Shown in pieces: positions 34,538 through 36,935 of a stretch of DNA of 49,797 nucleotides (positions are counted from its first letter, which is position 1; each line of letters begins with the position of its first letter). The translations under genes were made by a program, and so were the position numbers. The notes under the pieces are model-generated. The model had not been told where the DNA came from. It searched no databases and saw only the letters and a list, made by a program, of their open reading frames with translations. The DNA comes from Candidatus Gastranaerophilales bacterium (GTDB lineage: Bacteria > Cyanobacteriota > Vampirovibrionia > Gastranaerophilales > Gastranaerophilaceae): NCBI GenBank assembly GCA_947594025.1, contig CANQDZ010000006.1:1-49797 (forward strand), read 5' to 3'.

Positions 34538-34564
34538 AAAGCAAAAAATTTTTTTTATCTGTTT

Positions 34565-34570
34565 TATAAT
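34565..34570 (+). promoter_or_regulatory. Leaderless promoter of the 492-aa membrane protein
   Basis: TATAAT, six bases (TATGTC), ATG 34577: exact leaderless spacing. Confidence 0.55.
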
Positions 34571-34576
34571 TATGTC

Positions 34577-36055
34577 ATGGAAGTAAACTTTTTAACAAAA
34601 AGTAAAATACAACCTAATTCGCCTTTGCTGTGTTATAGCGAGCAAAACGGTTATAGAGAGACGAGTGTAAAAAATTTAAAGTATAACGGTAGACCCACGA
34701 AGGATGTAAGTTTTCGCGGGTCTACTTTTTTAAAAGCTCCAAAAGCATTGGCAAACATAGCGTCAGATGCTGTCCGTTTGTCATCAAAAGCCGATACAAG
34801 CCAAGTTAAAATTCCGAAATATGCTAAAAAACTTGTAAACAGTAATGGTTTTGGAAAAATTATTGAGAAAGTTTTAAGCAGTGAAGCCGTTGTTGAAGCT
34901 GCAATCGTACTTGGTTTAACCACAACGCTTAAACCTTTATGTACTTTGATTATGCCGGGTGCGAGCAAAGATGATAAAGAAGTTCTTGCCACAAAGCATG
35001 CATTGTCAGGTCTTGTAGGTTACGGCTTCTCTAAAATATTATATTCACCGCTTGCAAAAGCTGCAAATAAGGTTTCAAGAGACCCTGAAACATACTTAAA
35101 AGGTGATACGGAATATATTAAAAAGATTACAAAAGGCGGAAAATTACATGAATGCTTTGATGTTTTCTGGAAAAAAGGACCTGATGTTGTTGCTTCAATT
35201 CCAAAATCAATGCTTACGGTTGCCTTGATTACGCCAACTCTTGCATTTTTATTCCCAAATCATAAAAAATCGCAAAAAGGTAAACCAAATAAAAAACAAC
35301 AGCAATTAAACAATTTAATTAATCAAAAAATTTCAAATGACAACTTGTTAACCTTTAAAGGCAAACAAGATAACAATGTTTCATTTACGGGCTTAAAAGT
35401 AAATGACGCGGCACAGGCAATCGGCAAAACAAGTATCGTTAAACAAGCCGATGAACAACTTACGGAGGTTATTGCAAAAGGAATAGGTAAAGTTTCAATG
35501 CTAAAACCCGTTAAAAAAATTACGGAAGGACTTACAAAATTTAAAAAGCCTGCTCCTTTATTATCAAACTTGTCTTCAATTGTTTTAACATTATCTCTTT
35601 TAAACAACACCGCAAAATCAAAAACAATTGAAAAAGAAAGAAAACCTTATTTGTTATTAAATACGGCGCTTGTTACAATCATATCAAGTATAGCATCAAC
35701 CATTATTGATTTCTGCTCTGACGGCTTCTTAGAATCAATGAAAAAAGCTTACATGTCAGAAAAACTAGGCTTTAACGATAAACAAATTAAAAAAGGACTT
35801 CAACAATTAAGCGAAATTAAAGAATTTGGTCAAGTTAAAGACGCTGCGTGCGAAATTTTAACATCAGATAATGTTAAACAATTAAACAGATACATGCTTG
35901 GTGTAAACAAACTCAAATCACACACAATCTTCTCATTCGTAGTAAGATTTGCATCTCCTCTTTTAGTTGTTCCTTTAACGACAAAAGTGCTTGATATTTT
36001 TGAAAAAATTAACAAAAAGAAAAATAAAGACCAGACAGCTCAAGAAACACCTTAA
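34577..36055 (+). CDS. Uncharacterised multi-span membrane protein, 492 aa
   Basis: Not recognised. A polar 50-residue start is followed by about five hydrophobic segments (near residues 96-120, 213-230, 335-350, 360-380 and 452-472) in a lysine-rich protein. A short motif recurs: VSFRG (44-48), LTFKG (about 258-262) and VSFTG (about 268-272). The 5' part of the gene encloses a terminator-like hairpin at 34689-34731. A leaderless promoter supports ATG 34577. It is followed by a structured gap and another unknown membrane protein. Likely lineage-specific; the function is unknown. Confidence 0.8.
   Translation: MEVNFLTKSKIQPNSPLLCYSEQNGYRETSVKNLKYNGRPTKDVSFRGSTFLKAPKALANIASDAVRLSSKADTSQVKIPKYAKKLVNSNGFGKIIEKVLSSEAVVEAAIVLGLTTTLKPLCTLIMPGASKDDKEVLATKHALSGLVGYGFSKILYSPLAKAANKVSRDPETYLKGDTEYIKKITKGGKLHECFDVFWKKGPDVVASIPKSMLTVALITPTLAFLFPNHKKSQKGKPNKKQQQLNNLINQKISNDNLLTFKGKQDNNVSFTGLKVNDAAQAIGKTSIVKQADEQLTEVIAKGIGKVSMLKPVKKITEGLTKFKKPAPLLSNLSSIVLTLSLLNNTAKSKTIEKERKPYLLLNTALVTIISSIASTIIDFCSDGFLESMKKAYMSEKLGFNDKQIKKGLQQLSEIKEFGQVKDAACEILTSDNVKQLNRYMLGVNKLKSHTIFSFVVRFASPLLVVPLTTKVLDIFEKINKKKNKDQTAQETP
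34689..34731 (+). terminator. Terminator-like hairpin inside a coding sequence
   Basis: GTAGACCC (34689-34696) and GGGTCTAC (34718-34725) pair perfectly, extended inward by CG/CG past one mismatch, and are followed at once by TTTTTT (34726-34731). By sequence this is a good intrinsic terminator, yet it lies in codons 38-52 of the open frame, over the VSFRG motif. Confidence 0.6.
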
Positions 36056-36243: not shown

Positions 36244-36272
36244 TTGACACCTAATGCTTTATATGGTATATT
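36244..36272 (+). promoter_or_regulatory. Consensus promoter with a long leader, 183-aa gene
   Basis: TTGACA (36244-36249), 17 bases, TATATT (36267-36272): near-ideal sigma-70 type promoter. The transcript would begin near 36279 and have a leader of about 105 bases before ATG 36384, in contrast to the leaderless genes nearby. Confidence 0.7.
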
Positions 36273-36383: not shown

Positions 36384-36935
36384 ATGAGAACACAATCAAT
36401 AGAAAATATTAAAAGTTATACTACTGCTGCCACACTTGGTGTGGTCGGCGGTTATGCTCTTAAACATGCTATGCCGTTATCCGAATATGAAAGAGAAGAA
36501 TTTTTTACACCTGCCGTTATTGACTCTCTAAGAAATATTGAAAATTCCGCAAAAGCGTCAGAGTTTGATTCTATTGTTATAGGCGCAAGAGAGGGTATCG
36601 AGGATGTATCTGAAGATACCATTAAAATATTTAAAGCAAACAGAGTAAACATCCTTGAAAATAAAGCGGAAGACTTGCTTGAAAATATTTCAAATTATGA
36701 TAAACATGCAAAAGAAGCAGTTATAAAACTTGCAAGAAGAGTACAGCAATCAGGACTTGATGCAAAAGATGCGCAAATTAAAAATTATGTAGCACTTGCA
36801 AAACAATCAAGACCGACATCATATTTCATGCTTGTCGGTTCTGTTATAATGCTTTCTTTTGCGGTTTTAAAGAATTCGCTTTTTAAAAACATGAATGACG
36901 GTGAAGAATATAAACCTCTTGATTACATCGCCTAG
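36384..36935 (+). CDS. Uncharacterised membrane-anchored protein, 183 aa
   Basis: Not recognised. There is a hydrophobic stretch near the start (about residues 12-27, [16 protein letters not shown]), a long charged helical middle (for example [31 protein letters not shown]) and a second membrane helix near 146-163 ([16 protein letters not shown]). A GAGG Shine-Dalgarno lies only three bases before the ATG, unusually close. A strong promoter precedes it. The 3' end overlaps convergent thrC by four bases. It may form a set with the unknown protein upstream, but this rests only on adjacency and style. Confidence 0.72.

Follow-up and report, generated by a model that had tools for sequence, protein, structure and literature searches.

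Structured RNA elements that control genes are mostly sought in untranslated leaders. Among the described systems closest to the one presented here, the attenuators of the trp/his type are translated leaders, and the Rickettsia palindromic elements are in-frame palindromes translated within proteins. The element reported here lies inside the start of a protein-coding gene, on the forward strand of a 49,797-nucleotide stretch of Candidatus Gastranaerophilales DNA that was analysed as a whole (the window). We consider it, with modest confidence, to be a cis-acting RNA stem-loop that is translated as part of the N-terminus of a membrane-protein gene and gates early elongation. Literature searches covered hairpins and RNA structure in Gastranaerophilales, motifs in Melainabacteria (judged from titles and the opening of abstracts), structure within coding regions, and premature termination; they turned up no description of this hairpin element. 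The features of the locus are the following:

34541–34576, forward strand: promoter-like stretch, GCAAAAAA..TTTTTT tract plus a −10 hexamer TATAAT (34565–34570) whose end lies 6 nt from the ATG, as in a leaderless-type start (from the sequence and the spacing in the clade).
34577–36055, forward strand: gene for a lineage-specific membrane-type protein of 492 aa, containing the hairpin (from the ORF and homologues in relatives).
34689–34725, forward strand: stem-loop with outer helix GTAGACCC/GGGTCTAC, an A/C mismatch, inner helix CGAA/TTCG and a 7-nt loop (from sequence, folding, covariation and one copy per genome).
34691–34723, forward strand: 33-nt conserved core of the window's clade, AGACCC-R-C-N17-G-Y-GGGTCT (from a pattern search, one copy per genome).
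34706–34720, forward strand: VSFRG codons, shared between loop and 3' arm; the short motif they encode is also seen near the N-terminus of unrelated proteins of the lineage.
34726–34731, forward strand: run of six T after the stem, specific to the window species within the clade examined.

The 492-aa protein is laid out as an N-terminal extension, the VSFxG motif and a conserved core from about residue 80. It had no Pfam match at E 0.001, just weak and scattered ones at E 1, and no NCBIfam match at E 1, and its single-sequence structure prediction gave a pLDDT of 33.6, too low to be of use. Homologues were present in 69 of the 99 relatives searched, and the protein family in 232 of 383 genomes of the taxonomic family (E 1e-10). 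By these searches the protein belongs to a membrane-protein family that is specific to the lineage and to which neither Pfam nor NCBIfam gives a name. A search of a viral collection returned six pattern stretches, and a first scan of genome contigs with the window protein 55 stretches, none of them confirmed in either case. The window's genus encodes the family protein in a single frame, and several genera (L027, L030, L047, L036, L040, L022) in two overlapping frames, one for the N-half and one for the C-half. Downstream of the gene lies a 183-aa gene (36384–36935), preceded by an 11-of-12 sigma-70-like promoter at 36244–36272.

The initial annotation had proposed a leaderless start, and the sequence lends it support: the TATAAT hexamer of the window ends 6 nt before the ATG, and a TA...T hexamer is found exactly 6 nt upstream of an ATG in 19 of 30 clade members (the other 11 lack it by the strict pattern). 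The transcript in the window's clade probably has no leader, and the core starts 111–219 nt after the first ATG listed. In several other genera leaders seem, by eye, to be longer.

The hairpin itself had been described as an 8-bp stem with an inner extension running into six T, placed at codons 38–52 of an intact frame about 110 bases after the start, its arms encoding GRP and RGST around VSFRG so that peptide motif and RNA structure overlap. Inspection of the sequence, its translation and folding agree with this description on every point. The outer helix pairs 34689–34696 with 34718–34725, and inside it come the mismatch A34697/C34717 and the inner helix; the stem begins 112 nt after the ATG and spans codons 38–50, and the T-run ends in codon 52. 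RNAfold gave −20.5 kcal/mol (z −3.75), with one of 200 dinucleotide shuffles equally stable, and the hairpin was matched by none of 40 synonymous-codon shuffles in folding energy and none of 100 in stem score (p 0.0099); it is far beyond chance. A strict filter for compact hairpins retained 12 inside called genes, the window hairpin included, in about 450 kb of the window genome (the window and 20 further stretches). In 850 kb sampled from six genomes, 28 compact GC-rich hairpins lay inside called genes versus 58 between genes, and five of the 28 belong to the 492-aa protein family; the gene calls behind these counts, and behind the VSFxG counts given below, come from a crude longest-ORF method. 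The window site was absent from the list of a simple terminator scanner; with the inner mismatch, the stem is not compatible with the scanner's loop limit of 3–8. An Rfam 15 search of the window gave no match at gathering score, and just weak ones, far below gathering scores, at E ≤ 5. Two other structures were seen in passing: a pair of identical 29-nt palindromes, CGCAAGAGTTTTACTTACGTACTCTTGCG, at a distance of 153 bp from each other and close to the end of a contig (L139 11–39 and 164–192, at the start of contig 7 of G000), and a strong hairpin of −26.3 kcal/mol early in a 160-aa frame that does not belong to the 492-aa protein family (L164 19297–19337, G005).

Pattern searches with the core AGACCC-R-C-N17-G-Y-GGGTCT found exactly one copy in each of 21 out of 21 clade genomes, belonging to six genera, versus none for a control pattern, and the spacer was 17 in every match even though the pattern permitted 13 to 21. 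The clade core was absent from two check genomes from genera with other stem types. It was carried by 27 of 30 loci found by protein similarity (five being duplicates of earlier loci; the other three come from other genera) and by all eight homologues from named records. Another stem type was found once per genome in four of 19 genomes and in none of the remaining 15. The covariation alignment comprised 30 sequences (29 distinct), two antisense rows (L034 +, L180 +) having been dropped. In this clade alignment 92.8% of cells pair, compared with at most 45.4% in slid controls, and both-sided changes occur in six of 13 stem pairs, with a covariation score reached by none of 500 shuffles. Because the species are related, shuffle figures of this kind overstate independence. 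In alignment A2 the arms were partly set by the search pattern (fixed in columns 7–12, 14, 32 and 34–39, with a choice of two letters in 13 and 33), and only pair 6–40 and the inner pairs 15–18 are free of pattern choice.

The outermost pair is the most telling in this regard. On the 5' side it falls on the third position of a codon for a residue that is free to vary (N, F, H, I, V, T, S, D, E, G), yet 26 of 30 sequences have C there, compared with the 9.2 that codon use would give. T stands there in just those sequences in which the codon after the stem starts with A: the window species, L095 and L179. The T-A pair thus occurs in one member each of the window's own genus, g21 and g26, and since C-G is found in a relative of each within the same genus (L019, L034 and the other g26 members), these look like separate double changes. 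The abstract of PMC11234323 warns of covariation arising from shared ancestry, and for this reason we place weight on the switches within genera. Pairing is not perfect: the outermost pair is broken in L173, and the A/C mismatch is in the window species itself. Among stem mismatches GT outnumbered AC by 25 to 6, or 21 to 6 after removal of repeats, in a small sample with shared ancestry, a modest excess that favours sense RNA over DNA or antisense as the form in which the stem would be selected.

Hairpins of this kind were also found beyond the clade. We analysed 108 distinct homologous frames from 119 loci, testing the stem in the N-terminal coding region of each against synonymous shuffles of the same gene (p ≤ 0.05). 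A stem was detected in 64 of 77 genes with an N-terminal extension of at least 30 aa, 47 of them at the smallest possible p, versus two of 31 with shorter N-termini; counted by genus the figures are 27 of 32 and two of 23. The loci were picked by similarity to the window protein, so that long members are over-represented. Thirteen of the 77 extended genes miss the threshold and five of the 32 genera show no stem; one locus, L066, has a visible hairpin with a T-run, yet p is 0.356. Members with and without the long extension coexist in 14 genera, the window's own included, where the hairpin is missing from a second member (L002, p 0.861). At least five arm types were distinguished: AGACCC/GGGTCT (RP..GS), ATCCGCC/GGCGGAT (KSA..GFF), CCGC../..GCGG.CTT (K.A..GL), AGCGGCAG/CTGCCGCT (SGS..EAA) and GACCGC/GCGGTC (TTAG..SGR). 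In some stem types the loop and 3' arm are made up of the VSFxG codons; in others these codons lie just downstream or upstream of the hairpin. A single common mechanism is not certain, because the genera differ in the sequence of the stem, the length of the loop and the placement of the hairpin relative to VSFxG.

Codon choice within genera points in the same direction as the pairing. In genus g36 (15 species) a single codon is used at nine of ten conserved hairpin residues versus eight of 91 conserved residues elsewhere in the gene, a proportion reached by none of 20000 samples of outside columns, whether plain or residue-matched. In genus g26 (nine species) the figures are four of five versus 12 of 64, reached by nine of 20000 plain and none of 20000 matched samples. 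In the alignment of the 5' coding part the hairpin stands out as a conservation island within a diverged stretch, and in both genus alignments it is the sole consensus structure. The frozen codons, the switches of the outermost pair and the conservation island imply that selection acts on the stem at the level of nucleic acid, most probably that of the sense RNA. The check suggested by the initial annotation, whether compensatory synonymous changes keep the stem in homologues, comes out strongly in favour. These sequence comparisons show that nucleotide-level selection keeps the paired structure, whatever the exact stem sequence, in one gene family and once per genome in the clades tested. The hairpin is very probably a selected RNA-level element; that its action is the gating of elongation we propose tentatively, as quite possible.

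The closest rival places the hairpin entirely at the level of translation, where it would slow the ribosome early, for membrane targeting or control of translation, with no involvement of RNA polymerase. Its location in the early coding region of a membrane-type protein and the conservation across genera of structure rather than sequence are both compatible with this, and the distance from the start is not constant, ranging from 111 to 219 nt within the clade, which is less expected of such a role. We regard it as possible but rather unlikely.

Somewhat less likely still is an intrinsic terminator, as the initial annotation proposed, in which transcription would end at the stem and T6 if ribosomes from the leaderless start did not keep close behind. 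What stands of this claim is the canonical appearance in the window, a stable GC-rich stem-loop with six T directly after it; what does not stand is a U-tract conserved along with the stem. Five or more T in the eight bases after the stem occur in one of 29 clade hairpins, namely the window's own, and the only relative from the same genus retains the stem and has lost the T-run. The U-tract score of the clade is 1.26 versus 1.30 expected from synonymous codons, a value reached by 815 of 1000 simulations. U-rich stretches do follow the stem in all seven scored members of the KSA..GFF group, which resembles a canonical terminator, but this T-run is predicted by the peptide alone (6.0 T observed, 5.7 expected). 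The K.A..GL group has a U excess over expectation that was reached by one of 1000 simulations. It is also the group in which the slight T excess found across all 65 hairpins tested (5.35 versus 4.96 expected in 12 bases, reached by none of 1000) is strongest. Furthermore, the second codon after the stem in the clade (34726–34735 in the window, and the clade loci) ends in T in 29 of 30 sequences versus 11.4 expected, with a varying residue, so that a short UUU about four bases past the stem is kept; of the remaining hints at a role in transcription, this UUU is the best. Termination may occur in the window species, given its T6, as an extra of that species, but it is not the shared function.

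A DNA palindrome serving as the operator of a dimeric regulator, 110–220 bp inside the gene, is distinctly less likely. In the window's clade the constant 33-bp length, the fixed half-site sequence and the single copy per genome would fit an operator. Against it, arms 17 bp apart are unusual for a single dimer, other genera have different arm sequences and loops of 4 to about 20 nt, and the GT over AC bias among mismatches is not what a DNA palindrome predicts.

That the stem merely results from biased codons and the peptide motif RPxxxVSFxGS is highly improbable. A similar peptide is indeed present in many members, but synonymous shuffles do not produce the stem, and the outermost pair covaries even though it lies in freely varying residues. 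In genus g26 the hairpin arms are kept, yet the motif is lost from the loop peptide (SLGGS, SIGGS, SLSGS), and several members of this genus have a separate VSFTG-like stretch after the hairpin. The motif is itself an N-terminal feature of the lineage: the pattern [VIL][STN]F.G occurs 29 times in 59,758 residues within the first 80 positions of lineage proteins versus 21 times in 189,068 residues further in, and its reversed control 5 versus 22 times. Motifs of this type are seen in the N-termini of unrelated proteins (for example L142 6002–9808, L139 11254–11712 and L053). A general link between hairpins and VSFxG was rejected, since other VSFxG proteins mostly have no comparable hairpin.

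A programmed frameshift stimulator is the least credible reading: the window has two zero-frame heptamers, 8 and 11 nt upstream of the stem, but any nearby in-frame heptamer is found in just three of 30 clade members, which rules out −1 frameshifting as a shared function, and both other frames meet stops within 14 codons in 28 of 30. Three further candidates were discarded. A mobile palindromic element is ruled out by the lack of dispersed copies in the 21 clade genomes, an attenuator with alternative folds by the lack of a competing conserved structure in both genus alignments, and a CsrA-like GGA in the loop (AAGGATGT, judged by the CsrA consensus) is not kept in relatives.

Under the preferred reading of a translated, elongation-gating stem-loop, the hairpin would take effect shortly after initiation, in the sense mRNA that carries it. 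There it would form a barrier at which RNA polymerase or ribosomes pause or are thinned out until the leading ribosome, or a bound factor, opens it; in the window species T6 may add real intrinsic termination. The hairpin would then be, in effect, a regulatory leader that is translated. One may speculate further, in an extension of this idea that we think rather doubtful, that carrying the hairpin is the main reason for having the N-terminal extension. With no untranslated leader available, the regulatory leader would have moved into the reading frame, to be translated as a loose, poorly conserved N-terminus, and structure rather than sequence would be inherited across an order of uncultured gut bacteria, the stem being re-invented in each genus. 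In relatives the stem persists although its sequence, the loop peptide and even its position with respect to the peptide motif have changed, and calls of a terminator inside a gene can hide a different element. Genera with members that have and lack the hairpin offer a clean set for testing the control of a gene, probably leaderless in the clade, by an early coding hairpin.

Compared with known systems, the locus resembles the trp/his-type attenuators in that a ribosome on the same transcript could determine whether the hairpin folds, and differs from them in that no separate leader peptide was seen and the two genus alignments hold no rival antiterminator fold. With the Rickettsia palindromic elements it shares an in-frame, translated palindrome; here, in contrast, there is one copy per genome, in one orthologous gene, and not a dispersed set. 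Conserved structured elements in bacterial coding sequences, as a general class (PMC4619774, PMC2864571), are alike in keeping structure through synonymous and compensatory changes, whereas the window hairpin has no Rfam 15 match at gathering score. Lastly, intrinsic terminators and the ORF-internal 3' ends reported from E. coli (eLife 2021, PMC7815308) offer a parallel in a stable stem-loop early in the transcript, with T6 in the window species. The present element differs from these in that it is the stem and not the U-tract that is conserved, and in that the sequence is translated.
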